DNA from: Quatrionicoccus australiensis
GTDB taxonomy: Bacteria; Pseudomonadota; Gammaproteobacteria; Burkholderiales; Rhodocyclaceae
Reading direction: 5' to 3'
Assembly (NCBI RefSeq): GCF_020510525.1
Contig: NZ_CP075188.1
Location: forward strand, 496,001 to 560,000
Length of the DNA: 64,000 nt
Shown here: piece after piece, positions 1,517-17,650 of the stretch
How the letters are laid out: every line of letters starts with the position of its first letter
How positions within the stretch are numbered: the first letter of the stretch is position 1
Translations under genes and position numbers: made by a program
Notes under the pieces: generated by a model
What the model was told of the DNA's origin: nothing
What the model saw: the letters and a program-made list of their open reading frames with translations, nothing else
Database searches by the model: none

Positions 1517-4500
1517 TCAGGCAGGTGTGGTCTGGCGCTCCGGCCGGGCATGCTGGCGGAGCATTTTGAGCAATTCTTCGAGGTCGACCGGTTTGGCGAG
1601 ATGGCCGATCATGCCGGCGGCCAGGCACTTGTCGCGCTCTTCGCTGAAGGCGTGTGCCGTTTGCGCGATGATCGGCAAGTCGGGCGCCAGTTCGCGAATC
1701 AGCCGGCTTGCCTCGTAGCCGTCCATTTCCGGCATCTGGATGTCCATCAGGACATAGTCGTAGGCGGCACCGCCATCCCGGGCAATGCGTTCGACCGCTT
1801 CGCGCCCGTTGCTGACCACGACCACCGTCGCACCATCCTCGATCAGGTTGGCTTCCAGTATGGTCTGGTTGATCGGCTCGTCTTCGGCGACCAGGAAGGA
1901 CAATCCAAGCAGCGGTTTGCCGGCGCTTGCGGCTGGCTCGGCGGCTTTTTCCGGCTCGGCTTCCGTCGGCGCGAAAATGTAGGGCAAAAGGATGTCGACC
2001 GTTGTGCCGACATCGGGCTGGCTCTGCACTTCAATGCTGCCCTGCATCAGTTCGAGGATGCGCTTGCTGATCGCCAGCCCGAGGCCGGTGCCACCGAACT
2101 TGCGGGTTGACGAGGCGTCGGCCTGGTGGAAGGGGTTGAACAGGTCACCCAGTTGCGCCGCTGTCATGCCGATGCCGGTATCGCTGATCCGGAATGCGAG
2201 CTGATCGCCGCGCACCGAGGCGCTCAGGCTGACATGCCCGTGGGCCGTGAATTTGATCGCGTTGGAGAGCACATTGAGCAGCACCTGGCCGAGCCGCAAG
2301 GGGTCGCTCAGGCAACTCTCCGGCAGGTCGGCGGCGAGTTCGGTATGCAGTTCTATTCCTTTTGCTTCGGCCCGGTCGCGCAGCAGATCCAGCGTGTGTT
2401 CGATGACTTCGCCGAGATGGACCCGCGTCTGCTCGATATTCAGTTTGCCGGCCTCTATTTTCGAAAAATCGAGCACATCGTTGATGACGCCAAGCAGGCG
2501 CTTGCCGGAAAGCTGGATCTTGGCGAAGGCGTCGCGCGCCTTGGCCGGGTTCTCGCAATTGCGGAAACCGATGTCGGCAAAGCCGAGCACTCCGTTGAGC
2601 GGCGTGCGGATTTCATGACTCATGTTGGCGAGAAACTCGCTGCGGATACGCGCCAGGTTCTCGGCGGCCATCAGGGCCTGTTCGCGGGCCTGGGCGGTGG
2701 CCCGTTGTTCGCTCATGTCGACGAAGCTGATCACCGCGCCTATCGTCCTGCCGTCGGCCAGCATGGGATGTATGGCATACATCACCGGCACGGCATGGCC
2801 ATCGGCATGCCAGTAGACCTCGTTGTCGGCACGCATCTTGATACCCTGGCACAGGGCGTTGTGACTCGGGCACTCCTCCAGCGGATAGGGGCTGCCGTCC
2901 GGCTTGCTGTGATGGAAGAGGGCGTGGCCAGCCTGGCCGATGACCTGTTCGACCGTGTAGCCGAGCATTTCACAGGCGGCCGGATTGATGAAGGTGATCA
3001 GGCCTTTGGCGTCTACGCCGTATAGCCCGTCGGCACTCGACTGGAGGATGTGTGTGGCGCGCGCTTCGGTTTCCATCAGCGCCGTGGTGCGCTGCTGCAC
3101 CAGTTCTTCCAGATGGCGCCGGTGCAACTCGAGTTCGGCTTCGTTGCGCTTGCGCTCGGTGATGTCGCGGGTGACAGCGAGGATGGAGGTGATCCGGCCT
3201 TCGTTGTCACGCATCGGCACGGCATGGGTTTCCATCTGGCGATGTCCGCCCTTGAGCCCGATGATTTCGAATTCGAGCGAGCCGGCCTTGCCTTGCATGA
3301 CGCCGTCGTTGAGGGCGCGGAAGGCGGCACGGTCCTGCGGCGCGATGACGGTGAGGATGTCGCAGCCAAGTACCTGCTCGGCCGAGTTGGCCTCGATCAT
3401 GCCCAGCCCGGCGCGGTTCATCTGCAGCAGCCGGCCATCCGGTGTCAGCAGTTTGACGCACTCGGGCTCGGTGTCGATGATGGTCTGCAATTGCCGCTCG
3501 TTGCTGGCCAGCAGCTGTTGTGCCTGCTCGCGTTCGATGGCCGAGCCGACCCAGCGCGCCAGCAGGGCCATGAATTCGCGGTCGGTGTCGTCGAATTCGC
3601 GATGGTAGGGCGTGGGGGAACTGAAATTGACGGTTCCGTACGCCTTGCCATTCACCAGGACCGGTGCGCCGATGTACGACTCAAGCCGGAATGCGGTATA
3701 GCAGGGATGGCGGGCATGGCTTGAGCTACCCATACGGGAGATGGCAACGACGCATTCACCTTGCAGCGTGATGTTGCAATAGGTGTTGCCGAAGGGAAAC
3801 TCCTGACCGTCCTGCAGGACGTTGTCCGGCGAGACTTGCGAGACTATATGGTAGATGTCGCCGCTGACCTGGCTGATGATGCCAAACTCGAGTTCCAGCA
3901 GCTTGCTGCCTGCCGTGAGTGCCTGCTGCAATTGTTTGTCGAGCGGCAAATGCGAGAGCGCGGCGATTTCGTTGAGGCGGCGCAGGCTTTCCTGCTGGCG
4001 CAGGCCATGTTCGACGCTGTGGTTGAGCATTGCCTCGCGCAGCTGGGTCAGGCTCAGCTGGCGCAGCATGAAGTAGCCGGACAGGGCGGACAGCAGCATG
4101 AAGGCAAGCGCCATCGCCGAAGTCTGGTAAAGCTCGGTACGCCAGTCCGCCAGATAATCCTCGCTGGCGGCGCCGGCGACAACGATCATCGGTGCCTTGA
4201 CAAGGCGCCGGTAGGTCAGCTGACGATCCTGCCGATCGGGACCGTTCGGGGTGTGATAGCTCGCTGTTGCGATACCGGACTCGACGAGTTGCCGGAGTTC
4301 TGCCGAGACACTGCGGTTGCCGACCTGGCCTGCCGGTTGATCGGGGATGGCTGGAAACCGCGTGATCAGGCCCAGCTTGTCGTCACGCAGCACGATGGTG
4401 CCGTGTGGTCCGAGATCGAAACGGGAAACGATTTTGGCAAAGTGACTGAGCGCAATGGGCGCCGAAATCACCCCGGCAAAGCTGCCGTCCGGTTTGTTGT

Positions 4501-4999
4501 AGCGGCGTGAAAAACCGATGATGTATTGCTGGGCGACGCGCCCCATGCGTGGTTCGGCAATGTGCAGCGTGCTGTCGCTGTGGTCGCGGTGATAAATGAA
4601 GTAATCGCGGTCAGCCCAGTTGATCCTCTTTTCCTTGACCAGGCCCTTGCCGAGAATGACCAGACCGTCTGCATCGGATACCCGGAAGGCTTCGACCTCG
4701 GGCAGGCGCTGTTCGTGCCGGGTCAGGAAGGCCGTCATGCCGGCCTCGTCGATTTTCTTGCCGGCCAGCTGGCGCTCGAGTTCGTCGGCCACCGTGCGCA
4801 AAGCCAGATCGATGCGGGTAATGCTGCCGGAAACGTCCTGATCCAGCGCGCTGGCGATGTTCTGGGTCAGCGATTCGGCGCGCTGTTCATACTGTTCGCG
4901 GCTTTGCTGCAGCGAGAAAATACACAGCAGAACCACCAGCAAATTGGTAAGCACCAGGCTGGAGAGCAGCAGTTTGCGCAGGTTTTGGGGAGGCCTCAT
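1517..4999 (-). CDS. Membrane hybrid sensor histidine kinase (dCache-GAF-PAS-PAS-HisKA-HATPase-REC)
   Basis: This 1160-residue protein has a membrane segment at about 8-28, a periplasmic double-Cache sensor at about 35-285 and a second membrane segment at about 290-312. A GAF domain (about 345-500) and two PAS domains (about 505-625 and 650-775) follow. The HisKA block contains FLANMSHEIRTPLNG with the phospho-accepting His. The HATPase has intact N (NVLSNAIKF), G1 (DTGIGM) and G2 (GTGLGLAI) boxes. The C-terminal receiver has the acidic pair in VAEDEP and phospho-acceptor Asp in LMDIQMPEMDG. No response regulator or HPt gene is adjacent, so output is unknown. It is transcribed divergently from the guanidine operon. 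The ligand could be an amino acid or amine, as for many dCache sensors, but this is not shown. Confidence 0.93.
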   Translation of the reverse strand: MRPPQNLRKLLLSSLVLTNLLVVLLCIFSLQQSREQYEQRAESLTQNIASALDQDVSGSITRIDLALRTVADELERQLAGKKIDEAGMTAFLTRHEQRLPEVEAFRVSDADGLVILGKGLVKEKRINWADRDYFIYHRDHSDSTLHIAEPRMGRVAQQYIIGFSRRYNKPDGSFAGVISAPIALSHFAKIVSRFDLGPHGTIVLRDDKLGLITRFPAIPDQPAGQVGNRSVSAELRQLVESGIATASYHTPNGPDRQDRQLTYRRLVKAPMIVVAGAASEDYLADWRTELYQTSAMALAFMLLSALSGYFMLRQLSLTQLREAMLNHSVEHGLRQQESLRRLNEIAALSHLPLDKQLQQALTAGSKLLELEFGIISQVSGDIYHIVSQVSPDNVLQDGQEFPFGNTYCNITLQGECVVAISRMGSSSHARHPCYTAFRLESYIGAPVLVNGKAYGTVNFSSPTPYHREFDDTDREFMALLARWVGSAIEREQAQQLLASNERQLQTIIDTEPECVKLLTPDGRLLQMNRAGLGMIEANSAEQVLGCDILTVIAPQDRAAFRALNDGVMQGKAGSLEFEIIGLKGGHRQMETHAVPMRDNEGRITSILAVTRDITERKRNEAELELHRRHLEELVQQRTTALMETEARATHILQSSADGLYGVDAKGLITFINPAACEMLGYTVEQVIGQAGHALFHHSKPDGSPYPLEECPSHNALCQGIKMRADNEVYWHADGHAVPVMYAIHPMLADGRTIGAVISFVDMSEQRATAQAREQALMAAENLARIRSEFLANMSHEIRTPLNGVLGFADIGFRNCENPAKARDAFAKIQLSGKRLLGVINDVLDFSKIEAGKLNIEQTRVHLGEVIEHTLDLLRDRAEAKGIELHTELAADLPESCLSDPLRLGQVLLNVLSNAIKFTAHGHVSLSASVRGDQLAFRISDTGIGMTAAQLGDLFNPFHQADASSTRKFGGTGLGLAISKRILELMQGSIEVQSQPDVGTTVDILLPYIFAPTEAEPEKAAEPAASAGKPLLGLSFLVAEDEPINQTILEANLIEDGATVVVVSNGREAVERIARDGGAAYDYVLMDIQMPEMDGYEASRLIRELAPDLPIIAQTAHAFSEERDKCLAAGMIGHLAKPVDLEELLKMLRQHARPERQTTPA

Positions 5000-5139
5000 G
5001 TTCTTGTTCGGGCGGCGGATCTGGCCTGTGCGATGGTGCTATGCAAGGGAAATTTCCGTAGCTTCATGATTTTTATCGGTCGACGCCTGAATACTACGTC
5101 TTTTGGCATAGGTATAACGAATTTTTCAAAGGATAAGCT

Positions 5140-5154
5140 GCACCAAAGTGGTGC
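5140..5154. promoter_or_regulatory. NtrC-type enhancer palindrome upstream of the guanidine operon
   Basis: The 15 bases GCACCAAAGTGGTGC are a perfect palindrome of the form GCACC-N5-GGTGC, the NtrC binding consensus. The centre is about 150 bp upstream of the predicted sigma-54 start near 5297, a normal enhancer distance. A weaker half site (GCACC at 5170-5174) begins 30 bp further on, which would place a second dimer about three helical turns away. It would link the operon to nitrogen limitation. Confidence 0.75.
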
Positions 5155-5179
5155 TTTTTGTAATCCAGGGCACCACGAT

Positions 5180-5191
5180 GCAACGCGGTGC
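5180..5191. repeat. Left arm of a 12-bp inverted repeat flanking the promoter
   Basis: GCAACGCGGTGC here is the exact reverse complement of GCACCGCGTTGC at 5258-5269. The 66-bp interval lies upstream of the predicted sigma-54 start. The right arm touches the -24 element. Each arm contains a GGTGC/GCACC half site like the NtrC consensus, but with too short a spacer for a normal site. Confidence 0.55.
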
Positions 5192-5257
5192 GCTGGCCGG
5201 GTCTCCTTTTTGATGTGTCGCAGAAAGTTATTCGACTGTTTTTAAATGACAATTTTT

Positions 5258-5269
5258 GCACCGCGTTGC
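5258..5269. repeat. Right arm of the 12-bp inverted repeat, abutting the -24 element
   Basis: GCACCGCGTTGC is the reverse complement of the arm at 5180-5191. It ends one base before the TTGGCAT of the sigma-54 promoter. A protein bound here could block or assist the polymerase. Confidence 0.55.
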
Positions 5270-5286
5270 TTGGCATACGACGTGCT
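5270..5286 (+). promoter_or_regulatory. Sigma-54 (-24/-12) promoter of the guanidine operon
   Basis: TTGGCAT at 5270-5276 and TGCT at 5283-5286 give the diagnostic GG and GC dinucleotides with correct phase (first G of GG to G of GC is 12 bases). The match to YTGGCACG-N4-TTGCW is good but not perfect. Transcription would start near 5297 and run through the guanidine-I riboswitch. With the NtrC palindrome at 5140-5154 it makes a coherent nitrogen-controlled promoter. Confidence 0.7.
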
Positions 5287-5337
5287 AAATAGACTGTCGA
5301 GAGGGGCGGAACTGTTGTAGCGCGTTCGCTTCTTCGA

Positions 5338-5476
5338 AGGGTAGCTAGGGTTCCGGTTTCGTCAGTCGATCGCAAGGTCGGGCGGGATGTCTGGTCCGAG
5401 AGCTGCCGGTCATGAAATGCCGGACTCGTTGTCGGCAAGGCATGGCTCCACGGAGGGATAAAAGCCCGGGAGGATC
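5338..5476 (+). ncRNA. Guanidine-I (ykkC) riboswitch
   Basis: The conserved elements of the ykkC/guanidine-I aptamer occur in order: GCTAGGGTTCCG at 5344-5355, TCTGGTCCGAGAG around 5390-5402, and ACGGAGGGATAAAAGCCCGG around 5450-5469 followed by GAGGA. Variable stems lie between them. It is in the leader of the guanidine uptake and degradation operon, 55 bases before the first gene. A hairpin directly after it (GAGG-AT-CGCTT, loop, AAGCG-C-CCTC, about 5469-5494) overlaps the aptamer 3' end and may be the expression platform; no T-run follows, so translational or other control is as likely as termination. Confidence 0.95.
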
Positions 5477-5529
5477 GCTTTGACGAAGCGCCCTCTCGCC
5501 CATTTATCCGATCCGCAAGGGAGTCAGTC

Positions 5530-6579
5530 ATGCACAATCTCGCAGCCCGTTCCGCCCGCCGCTCCATCCTCTCCGGCGAGGCCTCGCAAGTTTCTTCCGT
5601 TTTCTCCCGCCTGCGCCAGGGCGCCGTCGCGCTCGGCGTCGGCTTGTCGCTGATCGCCACCTCGGCGCCGGCGCTGGCCGAAGTCAAGGTCGGCGTGTCC
5701 GACTGGCCGGGCTGGGTGGCCTGGTACGTTGCCGAGCAGAAGGGCTTCTTCAAGAAGCACCACGCCGACGTCAAACTGGTCTGGTTCGCCAACTACACCG
5801 ACTCGATCTCGGCGCTGTCCTCTGGTCAGCTCGATGCCAACTCGCAAACCTGGTCCGACACCATGGGCCCGCTCGCCAAGGGCGTGCCGGTCAAGGCCGT
5901 GCTGGTCAATGACAACTCGGCCGGCAACGACGCGCTGATGGTCAGCCCGAAGATCAAGGGCTTTGCTGATCTCAAGGGCAAGCGCATCGCGCTCGAGGAG
6001 TTCAGCATCTCGCATTTCGTGCTCGCCACCGCGCTGGCCAAGAACGGCATGAGCCAGAAGGACGTCAAGGTCGTCAATCTGTCGGCTGGCGATGCTGCTG
6101 CCGCCTTCATGTCCGGTCGCGTCGATGCCGCCGTGGTGTGGAACCCGTGGGTCAACCAGATCGAGAAGAGCGGCAAGGGCAAGGCGCTGTTCACCTCCAA
6201 GGACATGCCGGGCCTGATCCCCGACCTGCTGGTCGCGCAGGACAAGGCGATCAAGGCAAAGCGCAAGGACCTGGTCGGCATGATCCGCGCCTGGTTCGAC
6301 ACCGAGAAGTTCATCCGCGAGAACCCGGATGAAGCCGCTGCGATCATGTCCAAGGTGGTCAGCATGAAGGCCGACGAATACAAGGTCTTCCTGCCCGGTA
6401 CCAAGTTCTTCGATGCTGCCGCCAACCAGGCTGCTTTCAATGCCGCCGATCCGAAGTCGTTGCAGACCGTGGCGCCGACCATTGCCAAGTTCCTGCTCGA
6501 CAACAAGCTGATCGATGGCAAGCCGGATGCGGCCAAGGGCATCGATGCCTCGCTGCTGACCGAAGCCCTGGCCAAGTGA
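5530..6579 (+). CDS. Guanidine-operon ABC transporter, periplasmic substrate-binding protein (NitT/TauT type)
   Basis: A 349-residue periplasmic binding protein of the NMT1/SsuA-like class. The export signal is unusually long (about 50 residues), with its hydrophobic core at about 32-43 and cleavage expected after APALA. The mature part starts with VKVGVSDWPGWVAWYVAE, a typical first strand of this family. The start codon has AAGGGAG upstream. It heads the operon behind a guanidine-I riboswitch. Transporters of this class are commonly riboswitch-linked to guanidine metabolism, so guanidine or a guanidine-like compound is the expected ligand, replacing the default nitrate/sulfonate/bicarbonate label. 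Confidence 0.88.
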   Translation: MHNLAARSARRSILSGEASQVSSVFSRLRQGAVALGVGLSLIATSAPALAEVKVGVSDWPGWVAWYVAEQKGFFKKHHADVKLVWFANYTDSISALSSGQLDANSQTWSDTMGPLAKGVPVKAVLVNDNSAGNDALMVSPKIKGFADLKGKRIALEEFSISHFVLATALAKNGMSQKDVKVVNLSAGDAAAAFMSGRVDAAVVWNPWVNQIEKSGKGKALFTSKDMPGLIPDLLVAQDKAIKAKRKDLVGMIRAWFDTEKFIRENPDEAAAIMSKVVSMKADEYKVFLPGTKFFDAAANQAAFNAADPKSLQTVAPTIAKFLLDNKLIDGKPDAAKGIDASLLTEALAK

Positions 6580-6586
6580 GCTTGCG

Positions 6587-7399
6587 ATGAGCCGGACTTC
6601 GCGCGGCAGTTCGCTGTGGCAGATCCGCACCGCCATCGACCGGCGCCAGTACTGGCTGCTGGCCGTGGCCGGGCTGGTCGCGCCGCTGCTCGCCTGGGGC
6701 CTGCTGGGCAGCCTGGACGGGGTGGACAAGATCTTCCTGCCCGGGCCGCTCGACGTGCTCAAGCGGGCGCTCGCCTGGGCGACCGAGGACGACCTGGCGC
6801 ACGACGTCGCGATCAGTACCTGGCGCGTCGTCGCGGGCTGGGCGCTGTCCGCCCTGTTCGCGCTGCCGATCGGCCTCTACATCGGCACCTACCGTGCCGT
6901 GCAGGCGCTGCTCGAGCCGCTCACCGACTTCATCCGTTACATGCCGGCCGTCGCCTTCATTCCGCTCGTCATGCTGTGGGTCGGCATCGACGAAGGCTCG
7001 AAGGTGGCGATCATCTTCATCGGTACCTTCTTCCAGATGGTGCTGATGGTCGCCGAGGATGTCCGCCGGGTACCGCTGGCGCAGATCGAGGCGGCGCAGA
7101 CGATGGGCGCGACGCGCGGCGAGATCGTCGACAAGGTGATCATCCCGTCATCCAAGCCGGCCTTGCTCGACACCCTGCGCATCACCATGGGCTGGGCGTG
7201 GACCTACCTGGTCGTTGCCGAGCTGGTTGCCGCCAATTCCGGGCTCGGCTACGCCGTGCTCAAGGCGCAGCGCTTCCTGCAGACCGACAAGATCTTCGCC
7301 GGCATCCTGATGATCGGCCTGATCGGCCTGGTCATCGACCAGAGCTTCCGGCTGATCCATCGCAAGGCCTTTCCCTACCTGAACGGAGGTCGTTCATGA
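6587..7399 (+). CDS. Guanidine-operon ABC transporter, permease
   Basis: A 270-residue inner-membrane permease of the SsuC/TauC/NrtB type with about six helices. The EAA loop is visible as IEAAQTMGATRGEIVDKVIIP at about 167-187, where it would contact the ATPase. It starts seven bases after the binding-protein stop and overlaps the ATPase gene by four bases (ATGA), so translation is coupled. Substrate is inferred from the riboswitch context to be guanidine. Confidence 0.9.
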   Translation: MSRTSRGSSLWQIRTAIDRRQYWLLAVAGLVAPLLAWGLLGSLDGVDKIFLPGPLDVLKRALAWATEDDLAHDVAISTWRVVAGWALSALFALPIGLYIGTYRAVQALLEPLTDFIRYMPAVAFIPLVMLWVGIDEGSKVAIIFIGTFFQMVLMVAEDVRRVPLAQIEAAQTMGATRGEIVDKVIIPSSKPALLDTLRITMGWAWTYLVVAELVAANSGLGYAVLKAQRFLQTDKIFAGILMIGLIGLVIDQSFRLIHRKAFPYLNGGRS

Positions 7400-8244
7400 G
7401 CGCCAGCATTGAAATCCGCGGCGTCGGCAAGACCTTCGGGCGCGGACCGGGGGCGATCACCGCCTTGCAGAACGCCGACCTGCAGATCGGCCGCAACGAG
7501 TTCGTCACCTTCGTCGGCGCTTCCGGCTGCGGCAAATCCACGCTGTTGCGCATGATTGGCGGCCTGGAAACGGTCAGCGTCGGTGAAATCGCCGTTGATG
7601 GCAATCCAATCGAGGGGCCGGGCGTTGACCGTGCCATGGTCTTCCAGCACTACAGCCTCTACCCGTGGTTGACGGTGATCGAGAACATCAAGTTCTGCCG
7701 CCAGCTCAAGGCGCACATCGCCAATCGCACCGATGCCGACGTCGAGAAGGCCTCCGGCCGCGCCGACGCGCTGCTCCGCCTGATGGGCCTGGCGCACGTC
7801 GCGCATGCCTATCCGAACCAGTTGTCGGGCGGCATGCAGCAACGCGTTGCGATCGCCCGCGCCCTGATGAGCCGGCCGCCCATCCTGCTCATGGACGAAC
7901 CGTTCGGCGCACTCGATGCGCAGACGCGCGAAGTCATGCATGACCTGATCCGGCATGTGCATCGCATCGAGGGCAGCACCATCGTCTTCGTCACGCACGA
8001 CGTCGAGGAGGCGATCTACCTCGGTCAGCGCATCGTGCTGATGGCGCCGCGTCCGGGTCGCATCGACACGGTGTACGAGGTGCCGCTGCCGGCCGCACGG
8101 CAGCAGGAAATGAAACTCGCGCCCGAGTTTCTGACGCTGAAGCGGGAGATTCTCGACCGCATCCGCGAGACCTCGGGCATGAAAACCGATCTCGAGCAGC
8201 TTGAACGCCTGTCGGCGCAGGCTGCCGTGGAGGAAAACGCATGA
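7396..8244 (+). CDS. Guanidine-operon ABC transporter, ATP-binding protein
   Basis: A 282-residue SsuB/TauB-like ATPase starting at ATG 7396, inside the end of the permease gene. Walker A is [11 protein letters not shown], the Q-loop is [11 protein letters not shown], the signature is LSGGMQQR, Walker B is [12 protein letters not shown] and the switch His is in [10 protein letters not shown]. All catalytic elements are intact. The stop overlaps the next start by four bases. An earlier in-frame start (6616) would run through the permease gene and is not credible. Confidence 0.92.
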
Positions 8245-9032
8245 ATACCGCTTTGCAGAAAGCCCGCGCCGCCGTCGATATCGACCAGCGCTGGCAGCAA
8301 TTTGCCCCCGATCTGGAGGTCGACCGGGTGCTTTTCTCCGACGTCATTCCCGGCGGCTGCCACTGGTCGTGGCTGCTGCCGCGCGGCGTCACGCTGCGCC
8401 TGACCGCGCTCGACGCCGGCGCCAACCTGTCGCTGGTGCTCTACAACGCGCGCCAGAAGCTCGAGCGCTATAACCCGCCGGACACGCTGAAGGCGCAGCA
8501 CACCGCGCACTTCACGCGCGGTCACGTGCTGATGAGCGACATGGGCTGTTCCCTGGCCTCGATCACCGCCGACAGCCTGGGCTGGCACGACCCGCTCGGC
8601 CTGCTGCTCGACGCCGAGCGGATGCACGCCAAGTACGGCGATCACAATTACCAGCAGTTCCGCAACGGCATGTACCGCTCCGGGCGCGACGGCCTGTTGA
8701 TCGAGATCGGCAAGTACGGCCTCGGCCGGCGCGATCTCGTGGCGCCGGTCAATTTCTTCAGCAAGGTCAGCGTCGATGAGGAAGGCCGTTTCGCCTTCGC
8801 CGAGAAGCATGCCAAGGCCGGCGACTACGTCGATCTGCGCCTCGACATGGACGTTATCGTCGCCGTCTCGGCGGCGCCGCATCCGCTCGATCCGCGCCCG
8901 GGCTACGCACCGGCCCCGGTCGGCGTCGCTGCCTGGCGTTCCGGCCCGGCTGCGGCCGACGACTACTGCCGTGCCTTCCGCCCGGAAGGCGCCCGCGCGC
9001 TGCACAACAGCGATATGCAATACCTGATCTGA
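8241..9032 (+). CDS. Carboxyguanidine deiminase subunit (urea carboxylase-associated family, DUF1989)
   Basis: A 263-residue protein of the longer urea amidolyase-associated type. Conserved features include the GGCHWSWLLPRG segment near residue 38, MSDMGCSLASI near 96 with Cys, and WHDPLG near 114, likely metal or substrate ligands. In guanidine degradation two such DUF1989 proteins form carboxyguanidine deiminase (CgdAB), which removes one nitrogen from carboxyguanidine to give allophanate. I did not assign A or B. The gene is translationally coupled to the ATPase gene (4-base overlap) and lies nine bases before its partner. Confidence 0.85.
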   Translation: MNTALQKARAAVDIDQRWQQFAPDLEVDRVLFSDVIPGGCHWSWLLPRGVTLRLTALDAGANLSLVLYNARQKLERYNPPDTLKAQHTAHFTRGHVLMSDMGCSLASITADSLGWHDPLGLLLDAERMHAKYGDHNYQQFRNGMYRSGRDGLLIEIGKYGLGRRDLVAPVNFFSKVSVDEEGRFAFAEKHAKAGDYVDLRLDMDVIVAVSAAPHPLDPRPGYAPAPVGVAAWRSGPAAADDYCRAFRPEGARALHNSDMQYLI

Positions 9033-9041
9033 GGAGCCGCG

Positions 9042-9695
9042 ATGACCGCCACCGCCATGTGCATCCAGGAAAGCCCGCTCGACCCGGCCGCCGCCGTCTA
9101 CGACGTCACGCTGCCGGCCGGCGAACCCTGGCTGCATGAAATCCGCAAGGGCCAGACCCTGCGCATCGTCGATGTCGAAGGCAACCAGGCTGCCGACATC
9201 ATCTTCTACAACCGGCACGACACCGCCGAGCATTACAGCGTCAGCAACACCATCCTCGGCCAGGGCGGCATCTACCTGACCACCGGTTCGGTGCTGCGCA
9301 GCAACGAGGGCCGGCCGCTGCTGACCATCGTCGCCGACACCTGCGGCCGCCACGACACGGTCGGCGGGGCCTGTGCCGCCGAGAGCAACACGGTGCGCTA
9401 CGCGCTCGCCAAGAAGTTCATGCACAGCTGTCGCGACAACTACCTGCAGGCCATCCAGAACTCGGACGCCGGGCTGGACAAGGCCGATATCGTGCCCAAC
9501 ATCAATTTCTTCATGAACGTGCCGGTCACCGCCGACGGCCAGCTCACCTTTGCCGACGGCGTCTCCGGCCCCGGCAAGTATGTCGAGCTGCGTGCCGAGA
9601 TGGATGTCTGGGCGCTGCTCTCGAATTGCCCGCAACTGAACAATCCCTGCAATGCCTACAACCCGACGCCGGTCCGCCTGCTGATCTGGGACTGA
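9042..9695 (+). CDS. Carboxyguanidine deiminase subunit, partner protein (DUF1989)
   Basis: A 217-residue member of the same DUF1989 superfamily as the preceding gene. It has [12 protein letters not shown] near residue 46, [13 protein letters not shown] near residue 99 (Cys/His set) and [14 protein letters not shown] near residue 153. The start has GAGGAG at 9031-9036. Together with the upstream gene it is expected to make the deiminase step between guanidine carboxylation and allophanate hydrolysis. The segment after its stop (9696-9790) holds a second riboswitch. Confidence 0.85.
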
Positions 9696-9726
9696 CGCAA
9701 GAATCAGCGCTCCGGCTGCGCCGGCC

Positions 9727-9771
9727 CCCGGGACGACCCGGGCGGAACAAGAAGAAAGCGGGACGACCCGC
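9727..9771 (+). ncRNA. Guanidine-II (mini-ykkC) riboswitch
   Basis: Two short hairpins lie in tandem. The first is CCCGGG-ACGA-CCCGGG at 9727-9742, the second GCGGG-ACGA-CCCGC at 9758-9771, with a 15-base purine-rich linker. Paired stems with identical ACGR loops are the definition of the mini-ykkC/guanidine-II class. It sits 19 bases before the ATG of the carboxylase gene, the usual position for control of ribosome access, and the weak GCGAG Shine-Dalgarno follows the second stem. Its presence inside an operon already headed by a guanidine-I aptamer is striking. Confidence 0.85.
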
Positions 9772-9790
9772 GCTCTAGCGAGATAACACC

Positions 9791-12700
9791 ATGTTCAGCA
9801 AAGTCCTCATCGCCAACCGCGGCGCCATCGCCTGCCGCGTCATCCGCACGCTGAAGAAACTCGGCATCGCTTCCGTTGCGGTCTACTCCGAAGCGGATGC
9901 CAATTCCCTGCACGTTGCGCTGGCCGACGAGGCCGTCTGCATTGGCCCGGCCCCGGCCGCCGAGAGCTACCTGCGCGCCGACAAGATCCTCGCCGCGGCG
10001 CAGCAGACCGGCGCCCAGGGCATCCACCCCGGCTACGGCTTCCTCTCCGAGAACCCCGATTTCTCGGATGCCTGCGCCGCCGCCGGCATCGCCTTCATCG
10101 GCCCGACCAAGGCGCAGATGCTCGCTTTCGGCCTCAAGCACACGGCGCGCGAACTGGCCGAAGAAGCCGGCGTGCCGCTGCTGCCGGGCAGCGGCCTGCT
10201 CGCCGATGTCGGGCACGCGCGCGCCGAAGCGGCGCGCATCGGCTACCCGGTGATGCTCAAAAGCACGGCCGGCGGCGGTGGCATCGGCATGCGTCTGATC
10301 TGGTCCGCGGACGAACTCGGCGAAGCCTACGCATCGGTCGACCGCCTGGCGCGGGCCAATTTCAAGGAAGCCGGCATCTATCTCGAGAAATACGTCGAAG
10401 CGGCGCGCCACATCGAGGTGCAGGTTTTCGGCGACGGCGCCGGCCGCGTGCTGGCGCTGGGCGAGCGCGACTGCTCGGTACAGCGCCGTAACCAGAAGGT
10501 GATCGAGGAAACGCCGGCGCCCGGCCTGTCGACCGAACAGCGCGCCAGCCTGGCGGCGACCGCGGTGCGCCTGATGGAATCGGTTGCCTACCGCTCGGCC
10601 GGCACCGTCGAATTCGTCATGGATGCCAACAGCGGCGCCTTCTATTTCCTCGAAGTGAATACGCGTTTGCAGGTCGAGCACGGTGTCACCGAGGAAGTGA
10701 CCGGCGTCGATCTCGTCGAATGGATGGTGCGTCTCGCCGCCGGCGATCTCGAACTGCCGGCCGCCGCGCCGGCACCGCAGGGCGCCTCGATCCAGGTCCG
10801 GCTCTATGCCGAAGACCCGGCCAAGAGCTTCCAGCCGTCCTCCGGCCTGCTCAGCGAAATCGCCTTCCCGGACGGCGTGCGCGTCGAGACGGCGGTCGCC
10901 ACCGGCTCGGAAGTACCGCCGTACTACGATCCGATGGTCGCCAAGATCATCGTTCATGCCGACAGCCGCGAAGCGGCGACCGACCAGCTGATCGCCGCGC
11001 TCGACGCGACGCGCGTGCATGGCATCGAAACCAATCTCGCCTACCTGCGCCAGATCCTCGACGGCGAGGTGTTCCGCGCCGGCCGCCAGACGACGCGCTA
11101 TCTGAACGCCTTCCACTACCGGCCGAACACCATCGACGTGCTCGAATCCGGCGTGCAGACCTCGGTGCAGGACTGGCCGGGCCGCGTCGGCTACTGGGAT
11201 GTCGGCGTGCCGCCTTCGGGCCCGATGGACGATCTGGCGCTGCGTGCCGCGAATCGTCTGGTCGGCAATCCGGAAGGCGCGGCCGGCCTCGAATGCACGA
11301 TGAGCGGTCCGAGCCTGCGCTTCAACTGTGACGTGGTTTTTGCCCTGACCGGCGCGTCGACCGCTGCGACCCTCGACGACCAGCCGCTCGCCTTCTGGCA
11401 GGCGCATGTCGCCAAGGCCGGCTCGGTTCTCCGGATCGGCGCGGTCAGCGATGCCGGTTGCCGCAGCTATCTGGCGATTGCCGGCGGCTTCGACGTGCCC
11501 GATTACCTGGGCAGCAAATCCACCTTCACGCTCGGCCAGTTCGGCGGCCACGCCGGCCGCACGCTGCGTCTGGGCGACGTGCTGCACGTCACGCCGTGCA
11601 GCGAATTGCCGGCAGAAACCCCGGCCTATGTCGCGCCGGACTACGGCCATCACTGGGAAGTCGCGGTCATGTACGGCCCGCACGGCGCGCCCGATTTCTT
11701 CACCGATCCCGACATCGCCACTTTCTTCGCGACCGACTGGGAAATCCACTACAACTCGAGCCGCACCGGCGTCCGCCTGATCGGCCCGAAACCGCAGTGG
11801 GCGCGCAGCGACGGCGGCGAGGCCGGGCTGCACCCGTCGAATATCCACGACAACGCCTACGCGATCGGCGCCATCGACTTCACCGGCGACATGCCGGTCA
11901 TCCTCGGCCCGGACGGCCCCAGCCTGGGCGGCTTCGTCTGCCCGGCCGTGGTCATCCAGGCCGACCTGTGGAAGCTCGGCCAGTTGCGTCCGGGCGACAC
12001 GCTGCGTTTCGTGCCGGTCAGCGCGGCGAGTGCCGCGCAACGTCTGCGTAATGCTGATCTTGCCCTGCGCACGCCGGGGGCGGCTTTGGCCGCGCCGCTC
12101 GTCGCCGAACCGGACAGCGTCACGACGCCGGTGCTGGCCGACCTGCCGGCCGCCGGCGACCGCCCGCGCGTCGTCTATCGCCAGGCCGGCGATGCCTACC
12201 TGCTGGTCGAATACGGCCCGCTGGTGCTCGACATCGAACTGCGCTTCCGCGTGCAGGCGTTGATCAACTGGCTGCAGGCGAATCCGCAGCCGGGCATCAT
12301 CGACCTGACGCCGGGCATCCGCTCGCTGCAACTGCATTTCGACGCGCGCCGCACCGACCGCGCCGCCTTGCTTGCCGCGCTGGTCGCCGCCGAGGATCTG
12401 CTGCCGGCGGTCGACGACATGGAAGTGCCGAGCCGCACCGTCTATCTGCCGCTGTCCTGGGACGACCCGGCGACCAAACTGGCGATCGAGAAGTACATGC
12501 AGTCGGTCAGGAAGGACGCGCCGTGGTGCCCGTCCAACATCGAGTTCATCCGCCGCATCAACGGCCTGGACTCGGTCGAGCAGGTATTCAACACGGTGTT
12601 CGAGGCGAGCTATCTGGTGCTCGGCCTGGGCGACGTCTATCTCGGCGCGCCGGTCGCGACGCCGGTCGATCCGCGGCATCGCCTGGTCACCACCAAGTAC

Positions 12701-13390
12701 AACCCGGCCCGCACCTGGACGCCGGAAAACGCGGTCGGCATCGGCGGCGCCTATATGTGCGTCTATGGCATGGAAGGCCCCGGCGGCTACCAGTTCGTCG
12801 GGCGCACCGTGCAGATGTGGAACCGCTGGCAGAAGACGAAGGAATTCAGCAAGCCCTGGCTGCTGCGCTTCTTCGACCAGGTGCGTTTCGTGCCGGTGAG
12901 CGAGGCCGAGCTGCTGCAACTGCGCAAGGACTTCGTTGCCGGGCGCGCCTCGTTGCGCATCGAGGAAGGCACCTTCCGCCTCGCCGATTACCGCCGTTTC
13001 CTGGCCGACAACGCGGTACCGATCGGCGAATTCAAGGCGAAGCAGCAGGCCGCTTTCGAGGCCGAGCGCGAGCGCTGGAAGGCGGCCGGCCAGGCCGATT
13101 ACATCAGCGAGGCCGACATCGCCGCGGCGGCGCCGGATTCCGAACTCGACCTGCCGCCGGGCGCGCGCCTGGTCGCCAGTGAGGTGCCGGGCAATGTCTG
13201 GAAGGTGCTGGTCGAACCCGGCCAGCAGGTCAAGGCCGGCGAGACGCTGGTCATCGTCGAGTCGATGAAGATGGAGTTTTCCATCCTCGCACCGGTCGAC
13301 GGTGAAATTTTGCAGGTTTTCAGCCGCGAGGCGACGCCGGTCGCGGCCGGCCAGGACCTGCTCGTACTGCAAGCCGCCACGGAGAACTGA
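9791..13390 (+). CDS. Guanidine carboxylase (biotin-dependent; annotated by default as urea carboxylase)
   Basis: A complete 1199-residue biotin enzyme. Residues 1-445 are biotin carboxylase with ATP-grasp ([12 protein letters not shown] near 157; [15 protein letters not shown] near 290). Residues about 455-765 are the KipA-like carboxyltransferase part ([20 protein letters not shown]). About 785-1000 is the KipI-like part. About 1125-1199 is the biotinyl domain with the biotin Lys at about 1160 in ESMKME, a serine replacing the commoner alanine. It carboxylates guanidine (or urea) using ATP and bicarbonate. The two guanidine riboswitches and the two deiminase genes argue strongly for guanidine as the physiological substrate. 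Translation starts 19 bases after the mini-ykkC element. Confidence 0.92.
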
Positions 13391-13391
13391 G

Positions 13392-15206
13392 ATGAACGCC
13401 ACCACTCTGCCCGCCAGCCTCGATCTCGCCACGCTGGCTGCCGCCTACCGCGCCGGCCTCAAGCCGTCGGCGCTGTTCGCCCATCTGCACGATCTGGCTG
13501 CCGCCGATGATCACCACGCCTGGATCAGCCTGCTGCCGCGCGGCGAACTGCTCGCCCGCGCCGCCGCGCTCGATGCCGTCGATCCGGCCAGCCTGCCGCT
13601 CTACGGCGTGCCCTTCGCGGTCAAGGACAACATCGACCTGGCCGGCCTGCCGACCACGGCTGGCTGCCCCGACTACGCCTACGACCCGGCCGACTCGGCG
13701 GTCGTCGTGGCGCGCCTGCTCGCCGCCGGTGCGATCCCGCTCGGCAAGACCAATCTCGACCAGTTCGCGACCGGCCTGAACGGCACGCGCTCGCCCTACG
13801 GCGCCTGCCGCAACGCCTTCAAGCCGGAGTTCATTTCCGGCGGCTCGAGTTCCGGCTCGGCGGTCGCCGTCGCCGCCGGCCAGGTCAGTTTCTCGCTGGG
13901 CACCGATACCGCCGGCTCCGGCCGCGTGCCGGCTGCCTTCAACAACCTGGTCGGGCTCAAGCCGAGTTGCGGCGTGCTGTCCTCGCGCGGCGTCGTGCCG
14001 GCCTGCCGCTCGCTGGATTCGGTGTCGATTTTCACGTTGACCGCTACGGATGCCGCCGCCGTCTTCGCCGTCGCCCAGGCCTTCGATGCCGAGGATGCCT
14101 ACAGCTGGCCGCTCGCGCCGCACGGCCGGCGCTTCCCGGCCGGGGCGCCGTTCCGCTTCGGCGTGCCGCGCCGCGAGCAGCTCGCCTTCTTCGGCGATGC
14201 CGAAAACCCGGCGCTGTTCGACGCCGCCGTGGCGCGCCTGACTGCGCTGGGCGGTACACCGGTCGACCTCGATTTTTCGCCCTTTCTTGAAACCGCGCGC
14301 CTGCTCTACGGCGGGCCGTGGGTCGCCGAGCGTTACCACGCGATCAAGGATTTCATCGAGCGCCAGCCCGAGTCGGTCTTCCCGGTGACGCGCGAGATCA
14401 CGCTGGGCGGCGGCAAGGCGACTGCCGTCGAAGCCTTCGACGCGGCCTACCGCCTGAAGGCCTTGAAGCGCCGCTGCGATGCCGTCTGGCAGGACGTGGA
14501 TCTGGTCATCACGCCGACCGCCGGCCTGCATCCCACCATCGCCGCGGTCGAGGCCGAGCCGCTGCGCATCAACACCGATCTCGGCTATTACACCAATTTC
14601 ATGAACCTGCTCGACTACGCCGCGGTCGCCGTGCCGGCGGCCATGCGCAGCGACGGCTTGCCGTTCGGCGTGACGCTGTTCGCGCCAGCCTTCCAGGATC
14701 TGCCGCTGCTCGAACTGGCCAACCGCTGGCAGCAGGACAGCGGCCTGCCGCTCGGCGCCAGCGGTCAACCCTTGCCAACGAGCGAAATTGCCGCGCCGGG
14801 CGTGCCCGACGGCATGCTGCGCGTCGCCGTGTGCGGTGCGCACCTGTCCGGCCTGCCGCTCAACTGGCAACTGACCCAACGCGGCGGCCGCCTGATCGGC
14901 GCGGTGCGCTCGGCGCCGGAATACCGGTTTTATGCCCTGGCCGGCGGTCCACCGCTACGCCCGGGCATGGTCCGCGTCGCCAGCGGCGGCGCCGCGATCG
15001 AGATGGAAATCTGGGAGCTGCCGGCCCGTGAATTCGGCAGCTTCGTCGCCGGCATCCCGGCGCCGCTCGGCATCGGCAAGGTCAAGCTCGCCGACGGCAG
15101 CCAGGTCAGCGGTTTCGTCTGCGAAAGCGCCGGCCTGGAAGGCGCCGAGGACATCACGCACTTTGCCGGCTGGCGCAGCTGGCTGGCGAGCCGCAGCCAG
15201 GCGTAG
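13392..15206 (+). CDS. atzF: Allophanate hydrolase
   Basis: A 604-residue two-domain enzyme starting at ATG 13392, one base after the carboxylase stop. The N-terminal amidase-signature domain has the catalytic Lys in FAVKDNIDLAG (near 79), the GGSSSGS loop near 153 and the nucleophilic Ser in TDTAGSGRVP near 178. The C-terminal region (about 470-604) is the small allophanate-hydrolase domain. It converts allophanate to ammonia and CO2, the last step of guanidine breakdown. An upstream in-frame start at 13302 would overlap the carboxylase and is rejected. No terminator is evident before the convergent lipoprotein gene. Confidence 0.93.
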   Translation: MNATTLPASLDLATLAAAYRAGLKPSALFAHLHDLAAADDHHAWISLLPRGELLARAAALDAVDPASLPLYGVPFAVKDNIDLAGLPTTAGCPDYAYDPADSAVVVARLLAAGAIPLGKTNLDQFATGLNGTRSPYGACRNAFKPEFISGGSSSGSAVAVAAGQVSFSLGTDTAGSGRVPAAFNNLVGLKPSCGVLSSRGVVPACRSLDSVSIFTLTATDAAAVFAVAQAFDAEDAYSWPLAPHGRRFPAGAPFRFGVPRREQLAFFGDAENPALFDAAVARLTALGGTPVDLDFSPFLETARLLYGGPWVAERYHAIKDFIERQPESVFPVTREITLGGGKATAVEAFDAAYRLKALKRRCDAVWQDVDLVITPTAGLHPTIAAVEAEPLRINTDLGYYTNFMNLLDYAAVAVPAAMRSDGLPFGVTLFAPAFQDLPLLELANRWQQDSGLPLGASGQPLPTSEIAAPGVPDGMLRVAVCGAHLSGLPLNWQLTQRGGRLIGAVRSAPEYRFYALAGGPPLRPGMVRVASGGAAIEMEIWELPAREFGSFVAGIPAPLGIGKVKLADGSQVSGFVCESAGLEGAEDITHFAGWRSWLASRSQA

Positions 15207-15210
15207 CGGC

Positions 15211-15717
15211 TCAGTCGGCGGCGAAGATCAGCTCGACGCGGCGCATCTTCTGCAGGCAGGCCGAGCTCTTGCAGGTGGGCGGGGTCTGCTCGCGCGGCGC
15301 AAAGCCCTTGCGCACCTGGCGCGTCGGGACGCCGAGCGCCTTCAGGTAGCGGGCGACCGCATTGACGCGCTGGTCGGCGATCGCCAGGTTGTAGGCGCGG
15401 CTGCCGGTGTTGTCGGTGTGGCCGACCAGGGTCACGATCTGTTCGCCGTCTTCCTTGAGACGGGCGGCGTGCCGGCGCAGCTTGTCCTTTTCGTCGCGGC
15501 TCAGCGTGCTGGAAGCGAGCATGAAAAAGACGTTCGTCTCTTCGTCGGGGGCGATCTCAGGCTTATCTGCCTGGTGCGTATTGGCTGCCGGGGCTGGCGC
15601 CGGACTGGGGGCGACGACCGGTTCGCTTGCCGGCGCGGGGGCTGGTTGCGAAGCGCAGCCGGCGAACAAGCCGAGGACGACAAAAAGGGCGGTGATCCGG
15701 GAGGTGTTGATGGACAT
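15211..15717 (-). CDS. OmpA-family peptidoglycan-associated lipoprotein
   Basis: A 168-residue outer-membrane lipoprotein. The start at 15717 was chosen because AGAGGA lies eight bases upstream and it gives a clean signal with lipobox LFAGC. A proline/alanine-rich linker (about 22-62) precedes an OmpA-like domain (TLVGHTDNTGSRAYNLAIAD). A cysteine pair (TCKSSAC) near the C-terminus may form a disulfide. It anchors the outer membrane to peptidoglycan in characterised relatives. It converges on the allophanate hydrolase gene with only four bases between, and lies downstream of the MarR gene on the same strand. Confidence 0.85.
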   Translation of the reverse strand: MSINTSRITALFVVLGLFAGCASQPAPAPASEPVVAPSPAPAPAANTHQADKPEIAPDEETNVFFMLASSTLSRDEKDKLRRHAARLKEDGEQIVTLVGHTDNTGSRAYNLAIADQRVNAVARYLKALGVPTRQVRKGFAPREQTPPTCKSSACLQKMRRVELIFAAD

Positions 15718-15803
15718 GTGTTGCATCCTCTTCTGGTGATGGCATGACTGCGACAGGGCGATTAGCCGGCATCTCCGGGAAGGATTTGCCAGCGGCGTTT
15801 CGT

Positions 15804-16307
15804 TCATTTGTTCCGGTTGCCGGCTTTGCCGAGCATATCGGCCAGGGGCGTTGCGGCAAAAGTCTCGTCATGGCCGGGGAGGTGCTGAATCAATTCATCT
15901 AGATTGATATGCAATGTTTTAAGGGCGACTTCCGGGATGTTGGCGAGTGCCTGTGGCAGTACGCCTTCGGCCGGGCCGGGCAGGGCTGCGATCGCCAGCC
16001 GGCCGGCTTCGTCCAGGCAAAGGCCGACCCGCCGCTGGTCGGTGCTCAGGCGTTGCTTGCTCAGGTATTTCTTGTCTACCAGCCGGTCGACCAGTTGGCT
16101 GCAGGTCGACTGGTGAATGCCGAGGCGGCCCGCCAGTTCGGTGATTCCGATTTCCGGATGGCGCTCGACCTCCTGGATCAGCCACATCTGCGAGCCGGGC
16201 AGACCGCAGCATTCCTCCAGTTCGCGAAAGTACTGGCGCATGGTGCCGTAGATGACCCGGAACTGCTGCAAGACTTCCAGGGTCAGGTGGGGAGAAGGTT
16301 CGCTCAT
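15804..16307 (-). CDS. MarR-family transcriptional regulator
   Basis: A 167-residue winged-helix protein. The DNA-binding part is ITELAGRLGIHQSTCSQLVDRLVDKKYLSKQ (about 54-84; recognition helix around HQSTCSQLVDRL) followed by the wing with RLSTDQRRV. It is divergent from the antiporter gene, with two inverted repeats between them that fit MarR operators. It most likely controls itself and the antiporter/gamma-glutamyl cluster. Ligand unknown. Confidence 0.88.
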   Translation of the reverse strand: MSEPSPHLTLEVLQQFRVIYGTMRQYFRELEECCGLPGSQMWLIQEVERHPEIGITELAGRLGIHQSTCSQLVDRLVDKKYLSKQRLSTDQRRVGLCLDEAGRLAIAALPGPAEGVLPQALANIPEVALKTLHINLDELIQHLPGHDETFAATPLADMLGKAGNRNK

Positions 16308-16339
16308 CGAATGAATGCTTGCGCTGGATTGAGGCGCAA

Positions 16340-16375
16340 ATTATATTGCTAAGCAATTCAGTTTTGTGCTGAATT
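16340..16375. promoter_or_regulatory. MarR divergent control region: promoter and two inverted repeats
   Basis: On the minus strand TATAAT (16340-16345) is a consensus -10 for the MarR gene. Immediately upstream are ATTGC-TAA-GCAAT (16345-16357) and AATTCAG-N7-CTGAATT (16355-16375), overlapping by three bases. A plus-strand TACAAT at 16379-16384 could serve the antiporter operon. Palindromes of this size placed over a promoter are what MarR dimers bind; assignment is inferred. Confidence 0.55.
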
Positions 16376-16406
16376 TATTACAATCCTTATCGATGAGGGT
16401 TTTGCA

Positions 16407-16428
16407 GGGGGCTTGCCCCCCTTTTTTT
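16407..16428 (+). terminator. Intrinsic-terminator-like hairpin directly before a start codon (possible attenuator)
   Basis: GGGGG-CTTG-CCCCC is followed by C and seven T residues ending at 16428, one base before the ATG of the antiporter gene. This is a strong terminator shape in the leader of the plus-strand operon. It leaves no room for a Shine-Dalgarno. Either it regulates by premature termination or the real start differs. Confidence 0.65.
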
Positions 16429-16429
16429 C

Positions 16430-17650
16430 ATGTTCAATTCGATTCAGCTTTTCGGTCTGGTTTTGCTCGGCGGCCTGCTCGCCGGCGAACTTGCACGTCG
16501 ATTGTGCGCCTTGCCGCGAACGACCGGTTATGTGTTGTTCGGTTTGCTGATCGGGCAAAGCGGTCTGCAATGGGTGACCCCGCTCCACATCGAGTCGGCG
16601 CAGTTGTTCATCGATCTGGCGCTGGGCCTGATCCTTTTCGAACTTGGCTACCTGGTGCCGCGCAGTTCGCCGCAGTCCGGGCGCCGGCGCTTGCTGGCCG
16701 GCAGCCTCCTGTCCTTGCTGGCCGGATTGCTGGTCCTGCTACTCTTTGTCAGTTGGGGATTTTCCGTCGGTTCGGCTCTGTTCGCCGCGGCGCTGTGTCT
16801 GGCAACGTCGCCGGCCATCACGATTGCCACCTGCAGTGATGTCGGGGCCCGCGGCGAGCGTACCGGCCTGCTTTACAGCATGGTGGCGATCAACGGCGCC
16901 GCAGCCTTTGCGCTCGTCGTCATGCTCGTTCCCTTCCTCATCGACAGCCAGCCGCTCAGCATTTTCCAGCGGGTCAGCGGGGCCCTGGGCAGCATCTTCG
17001 GTTCGCTGCTGCTGGGCGGCGCATGCGCCGGCCTCGTCCTGCTTGGGGTCGATAAACTGGAAAAGCAGGCAGAACATCATCATTTGCTGATCCTGGGCTG
17101 CATTGTGCTCGGCGTCGGGACAGCAATTTATCTCGATATTTCGGTATTTCTGCCCATGCTGGTATTCGGCTTGCTGGTCAGCAACATCGATCGCGAGCAA
17201 AAAGTCATCGCCCTGCGCATCGCCAGCGACGCCCGGGTTTTCCTGGTGATCACCTTCGTTCTTGCCGGCGCCGCACTTGATATCGCCTATTTGCGGGATT
17301 ACTGGTTTCCGGCCCTGCTGATCGCGCTGGCCCGTTTCGCCGGGCAGCTGTTTTCGCTTCTGCTTTGTCGGCGCGAGCTTGGCCTGTCCCCGAAGGAGGT
17401 TGTCCTGATGACGGTCGGCCTGCAGCCGATGTCGAGTATCGCGCTGGTTTTGCTGGTCAATACGCAATTGCTTTACAGCGGCATGGAGGCCGAGTTGGTC
17501 GGCATGTTGATGGCGACCATCCTGTTGATGCAATTGTTCGGCCCTTTCGCCACCCAGACCGCAATCAAGGGGTTCGGCGAGGCAACGCGCCTGCGCGGCA
17601 GACAGCAATCTGTCGCCGAGGCACCAACCACAGGAGGCGGATATGGCTAG
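16430..17650 (+). CDS. Cation/proton antiporter, membrane domain only (CPA2/KefB-like)
   Basis: A 406-residue protein with about twelve membrane helices, PF00999 type. It has RTTGYVLFGLLIGQSG near residue 29, typical of the first Kef helix pair, and ends without the cytoplasmic TrkA-N (RCK) domain of KefB/KefC. It exchanges K+ or Na+ for protons in relatives. It overlaps the C26 hydrolase gene by eight bases. The ATG has no Shine-Dalgarno because a terminator-like hairpin is directly upstream. A second antiporter follows two genes later. Confidence 0.85.
   Translation: MFNSIQLFGLVLLGGLLAGELARRLCALPRTTGYVLFGLLIGQSGLQWVTPLHIESAQLFIDLALGLILFELGYLVPRSSPQSGRRRLLAGSLLSLLAGLLVLLLFVSWGFSVGSALFAAALCLATSPAITIATCSDVGARGERTGLLYSMVAINGAAAFALVVMLVPFLIDSQPLSIFQRVSGALGSIFGSLLLGGACAGLVLLGVDKLEKQAEHHHLLILGCIVLGVGTAIYLDISVFLPMLVFGLLVSNIDREQKVIALRIASDARVFLVITFVLAGAALDIAYLRDYWFPALLIALARFAGQLFSLLLCRRELGLSPKEVVLMTVGLQPMSSIALVLLVNTQLLYSGMEAELVGMLMATILLMQLFGPFATQTAIKGFGEATRLRGRQQSVAEAPTTGGGYG

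Follow-up and report, generated by a model that had tools for sequence, protein, structure and literature searches.

Two guanidine riboswitches of different classes in succession in a predicted guanidine-assimilation operon of Quatrionicoccus australiensis

The analysis of a 64,000-nucleotide (nt) window of the Quatrionicoccus australiensis genome (4,171,110 bases, one contig), within which all coordinates below are counted, identified what is very probably a guanidine-assimilation operon controlled by two successive guanidine-activated switches. A guanidine-I (ykkC) riboswitch aptamer stands at the head of the operon, and a guanidine-II (mini-ykkC) element lies in front of gca, the guanidine carboxylase gene. 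The sequence establishes both aptamers, their positions and the identities of the enzymes, and comparison shows that the layout recurs in relatives.

The aptamers and the genes they precede

All 4227 Rfam families were run with cmscan against the whole window at the curators' cut-offs, and exactly two matches passed: RF00442 (guanidine-I) and RF01068 (guanidine-II), each to the full-length model and on the plus strand (Table 1). Both proved to be single copies when the entire genome was searched. A permissive Rfam scan of 5000-15500 added six further matches, all far under the cut-offs of their families. The initial annotation had claimed two classes of guanidine riboswitch for one operon, the first at its head and the second in the gap before the carboxylase gene, and had named the mini-ykkC model as a check; both classes were found at these positions, within a few bases of its coordinates, and the mini-ykkC score clears its threshold.

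Genes were called from NCBIfam profile matches judged against curated cut-offs. Seven genes lie on one strand and neighbours overlap or are at most 9 nt apart, with the exception of cgdB and gca, whose separation of 95 nt is the sole gap of more than 10 nt in the operon and houses the guanidine-II element. The element begins 29 nt past the cgdB stop and ends 19 nt upstream of the carboxylase start. The genes for the CgdA and CgdB subunits adjoin, and their identities come from family profile scores. To judge from gene context, the substrate of the ATP-binding cassette (ABC) importer is presumably guanidine. Two gene starts were assigned in this analysis: that of the ATPase (7396), from its overlap with the permease stop, and that of the hydrolase (13392), in a 604-residue reading for which the longest open reading frame (ORF) starts at 13302.

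The profile library names the gca product a urea carboxylase. Its residues were aligned with 3va7 and converted with an offset of 593 to 5i8i, a 1829-residue urea amidolyase matched over the same query range; we take the residue numbers of 5i8i to be the K. lactis numbering. In this alignment D696 of the window carboxylase falls on Asn737 of 3va7 (K. lactis 1330) and D948 on Asp991 (K. lactis 1584). According to PMC11410670, Asp is required at 1584 and Asp at 1330 separates guanidine from urea carboxylases; the window enzyme has both diagnostic residues. Among relatives, Asp occupies position 1330 in 41 of 42 sequences compared from loci of the cgdAB type, while the five hydrolase-first loci lacking cgdAB have Asn. 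By these residues the operon is of guanidine type, because gca carries the diagnostic Asp that the cgdAB-type relatives share and the hydrolase-first relatives replace with Asn. A urea carboxylase operon is ruled out by the two residues together with the presence of cgdAB, and for this operon the library label is misleading. The single departure among the 42 is locus L160 (G290), where Asn is found at the diagnostic position despite cgdA, cgdB and a guanidine-II element upstream of the carboxylase.

Table 1. Features of the operon and of its two riboswitch regions (window coordinates)
Feature	Position	Strand	Score or detail
Guanidine-I (ykkC) riboswitch aptamer, RF00442	5334..5474	+	78.2 bits, cut-off 63; E 3.2e-12; model 1-107/107
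Alternative hairpin taking up the aptamer 3' strand (possible guanidine-I OFF state)	5456..5509	+	-25.0 kcal/mol; z -2.7
ABC importer substrate-binding protein, SsuA family	5530..6579	+	TIGR01728, 208.6 bits, cut-off 163.5
ABC importer permease	6587..7399	+	Top NCBIfam matches are permeases, under equivalog cut-offs
ABC importer ATPase	7396..8244	+	Top NCBIfam matches are ABC ATPases, under curated cut-offs
cgdA, carboxyguanidine deiminase subunit (UAAP1)	8241..9032	+	TIGR03425, 339.5 bits, cut-off 205.95
cgdB, carboxyguanidine deiminase subunit (UAAP2)	9042..9695	+	TIGR03424, 341.9 bits, cut-off 284.7
G+C-rich hairpin immediately 5' of P1	9712..9724	+	CCGGC-loop-GCCGG
Guanidine-II (mini-ykkC), RF01068	9725..9771	+	38.5 bits, cut-off 32; E 0.00038 (64 kb, 4227 families)
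Guanidine-II P1	9725-9745	+	Loop ACGA 9733-9736
Guanidine-II linker	9746-9757	+	Purine-rich
Guanidine-II P2	9758-9771	+	Loop ACGA 9763-9766
gca Shine-Dalgarno GCGAGA, weak, probable	9778..9783	+	7 nt before start; best anti-Shine-Dalgarno match, -3.0 kcal/mol
gca, guanidine carboxylase (library name: urea carboxylase)	9791..13390	+	TIGR02712, 1882.9 bits, cut-off 1303.85
Allophanate hydrolase	13392..15206	+	TIGR02713, 839.3 bits, cut-off 511.05, scored on longer ORF

Recurrence of the arrangement in relatives

In the family, 70 of 395 genomes gave a guanidine-II match, 20 a guanidine-I match and 25 a carboxylase over cut-off; the corresponding numbers for 200 genomes of the order were 31, 26 and 30. 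The RNA searches at both levels used stricter filters, by which weak matches are lost. The operon is patchy: among 22 genomes of its own genus, only the window genome has a carboxylase over cut-off or a guanidine-I aptamer. Genes were mapped by tblastn at 55 carboxylase loci, which with the window make 56 (those of G232, G566 and G029 and a second G091 copy were left out).

The genes cgdA and cgdB lie upstream of gca in 49 of these 56 loci, and a double hairpin with ACGN loops stands upstream of the carboxylase in 37 of the 49. Guanidine-I and the double hairpin occur together in 27 (24 with two ACGR loops, three with one loop off). Four of the 37 double hairpins (L186, L187, L194 and L201) were missed by the strict family search and recognized by pattern; that of L194 has a mismatch in P1. 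In L182, L186 and L187 one loop is ACGT or ACGC in place of ACGR, which could reflect decay or an altered ligand. Double guanidine gating thus recurs in the family and order of the window, beyond the published enterobacteria and halophile; the initial annotation had suggested looking for the same pair in related operons, and 27 of the 49 loci have it.

Seven loci do not have cgdAB: in five the hydrolase comes first (the urea type), L196 runs into the end of its contig, and L185 carries guanidine-I alone. No double hairpin was found at the carboxylase in any of the seven, including the five of urea type (loose pattern matches in L150 and L189, 138-216 nt before the carboxylase, fall at the mapped hydrolase gene and were not counted). 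Some loci depart from the common layout. L185 (G063) has two divergent guanidine-I aptamers at 7942-8444, between carboxylase genes on opposite strands. In L179 (G091), 4107-5558, two serial guanidine-I aptamers precede the importer and are followed by guanidine-II before gca, giving three guanidine switches. In L162, L165, L172, L175, L193, L197 and L201 the importer set is a different and distant one, sharing about 30-50% identity with that of the window; guanidine-I was not detected in any of these seven, and in all of them except L201 the ATPase and cgdA are 2-3 kb apart. In the hairpin-only locus L174 a contig end cuts the locus, and a guanidine-I aptamer is present on another contig of that genome.

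The alignment of the guanidine-II stems was subjected to a column-shuffle test (2000 shuffles, distinct stems only; the shuffles do not preserve sequence relatedness). P1 covaries: 125 of 132 cells are paired over 22 distinct stems (shuffles: mean 87.0, standard deviation 4.0, maximum 101), and in five of its six pairs both positions have changed. P2 is almost constant, with 36 of 40 cells paired over eight distinct stems (shuffles: mean 34.3, standard deviation 1.1, maximum 38); its pairing is reached by some shuffles, and it varies too little to prove itself alone. The covariation that the initial annotation asked of homologous operons is therefore seen in P1 and could not show itself in P2. 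The distance from the end of guanidine-II to the aligned carboxylase start is 11 to 36 nt, with a median of 23, in the 33 loci whose guanidine-II was called by the family search (in L151 and L152 the aligned start falls some codons downstream of the gene's beginning).

Two G+C-rich hairpins paired by chance might produce a match that, like this one, is 6.5 bits over its cut-off and has a P2 with so little variation. The E-value over 64 kb, the double hairpin found at this position in 37 of 49 loci and a P1 pairing above all 2000 shuffles speak against such a coincidence. We regard it as ruled out by score, position in relatives and P1 covariation, its residual probability being negligible.

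Proposed control and its alternatives

Guanidine-I in this operon is likely to be a transcriptional ON switch. A hairpin at 5456-5509 could take up the 3' strand of the aptamer, with 14 of 18 aptamer nt pairing downstream. Its z-score was obtained against 200 mononucleotide shuffles; the same hairpin has z of -2.7 to -4.7 in eight close relatives (L153-L159 and L173). By analogy with the known class, guanidine bound to the aptamer would keep its 3' strand from this hairpin and let transcription enter the operon. In the same way, guanidine on guanidine-II would join P1 and P2 via their ACGA loops and increase initiation at gca. Control of gca translation probably extends to allophanate hydrolase, because the hydrolase start lies 1 nt past the gca stop. 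More tentatively, the second gate might bar synthesis of the ATP- and biotin-dependent carboxylase from leaky transcripts, which would make it a safeguard tied to a single ligand and not a timer. The original proposal of one gate on the transcript and then a second on translation is in our judgement right, and PMC12508155 presumes the same for the operon of Vreelandella boliviensis.

Several observations weigh against this two-gate scheme. The alternative hairpin gives mixed results over all guanidine-I loci tested, with z from -7.2 to +1.1. No terminator at the operon head passes a simple scan, and the U-tract of the hairpin is weak (AUUUAU); by eye, a classic terminator-like feature is present at the corresponding site in L177 and L178. 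At the second switch, the purine-rich linker contains no complement of GCGAGA and cannot pair with the Shine-Dalgarno sequence. The mean unpaired probability of GCGAGA is 0.13, with the minimum-energy fold pairing it with early gca codons, and it stays at 0.13 when P1 and P2 are forced. Finally, ten of the 49 loci have guanidine-I only, ten have the double hairpin without a detected guanidine-I and two have neither; neither switch is indispensable, because these 22 loci carry one or none.

The possibility that formation of P1 and P2 relieves masking of the Shine-Dalgarno sequence was rejected on partition-function folding, in which mean exposure changed by no more than 0.06 in 35 of 37 loci (L170 and L194 shift by 0.12 and 0.14). 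Exposure barely changes on forcing the hairpins because P1 and P2 form anyway; such folding does not cover a tertiary switch made by ligand-induced contact between the P1 and P2 loops. Also rejected, as speculative, was a conserved helix in which linker and tail would pair across P2. A consensus fold computed from 12 close sequences retains only P1 and P2, although 11 of them could singly form linker-tail or tail hairpins of three to six pairs; L175 has no tail hairpin and just two linker-tail helices, each of 3 bp. The CCGGC-loop-GCCGG hairpin 5' of P1 is found in ten of the 12 close loci, with differing loops, and is likewise not retained in that consensus fold.

The initial annotation had favoured staged expression, in which guanidine-I would respond to less guanidine than guanidine-II, so that import comes first and catabolism later. 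The order of genes and switches fits, and in-line probing of the V. boliviensis RNAs gave dissociation constants (KD) for guanidine of 44 +/- 9 µM for guanidine-I and 93 +/- 6 µM for guanidine-II (PMC12508155). However, a twofold difference in apparent KD, in the single pair of affinities found in print, is small, the catabolic genes cgdA and cgdB sit with the importer on the near side of guanidine-II, and guanidine-II is found in ten loci where no guanidine-I was detected. We consider staging unlikely and unsupported by these data; in our judgement, a double gate that keeps the costly enzyme off is more likely.

The same ten loci suggest that guanidine-II can act on its own, and it might head a second transcript with its own promoter, the operon then consisting of two units and not of two switches stacked on one transcript. 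The longer gaps of 159 to 812 nt between cgdB and gca in L151, L155, L156, L159 and others favour this reading. In the window, however, the cgdB stop and guanidine-II are just 29 nt apart, and no sigma-70-like site was found in 9400-9850 by a scan that misses other promoter types; we give this explanation a low probability. No sigma-70 promoter was found by the promoter scan at the operon head either. Equally improbable is that guanidine-II here also senses methylguanidine. The V. boliviensis element does so with a KD of 83 +/- 5 µM and does not tell the two ligands apart (PMC12508155), but no gene for methylguanidine demethylation is present among the seven of the operon, to which that search was confined within the genome.

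A wider generalization can be offered only as a long shot. In the order, it would be the carboxylase, and not the importer or the deiminase, that repeatedly has a guanidine-II gate to itself (37 of 49 loci, 27 of these with guanidine-I upstream). In close relatives of the window this gate would work without a linker anti-Shine-Dalgarno, perhaps because the pyrimidine stretch from P2 to the Shine-Dalgarno sequence can pair either with that sequence or with the linker. If this is true, guanidine-II would use no fewer than two expression platforms, and selection would have favoured double gating by a single ligand to safeguard a costly enzyme.

The operon is preceded by a gene for a hybrid sensor kinase on the minus strand (1517-4999; GAF, PAS, HisKA, HATPase and receiver domains) and followed, at 15211-17650, by genes for an OmpA-domain protein, a MarR-type regulator and a sodium/hydrogen exchanger.

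Comparison with published systems

The serial arrangement of guanidine-I and guanidine-II, which the initial annotation believed unstudied, is already in print, and the window operon is a further instance of it. A 2025 review (PMC12186494) describes guanidine-I at the importer/deaminase genes and guanidine-II at the carboxylase/hydrolase genes immediately downstream in R. terrigena, E. rhapontici and K. michiganensis, three enterobacteria that use guanidine. By this description, their operons resemble that of the window in associating each class of switch with the same genes. The survey is new here, as are the classification of gca as guanidine type and the finding that a linker anti-Shine-Dalgarno is absent. 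The contribution of the second switch was left to further studies by PMC12508155; the survey offers natural variants, with both switches, either alone or neither, for asking what it adds.

In the published model of guanidine-II, an anti-Shine-Dalgarno in the linker is hidden once P1 and P2 join (PMC9094411, PMC7544219). The window element is like this model in having two ACGA-loop hairpins shortly before a start codon, and unlike it in its purine-rich linker.

A close parallel is the V. boliviensis operon (PMC12508155, 2025), in which guanidine-I occupies the 5' leader and guanidine-II the gap from cgdB to gca, as in the window, and which likewise combines the guanidine carboxylase pathway with an ABC importer. 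It differs in its additional methylguanidine genes mgdH and mgdL, which have no counterpart among the seven genes of the window operon. For V. boliviensis both binding by the two aptamers and strong upregulation of the operon have been measured, whereas the window operon is known from its sequence.

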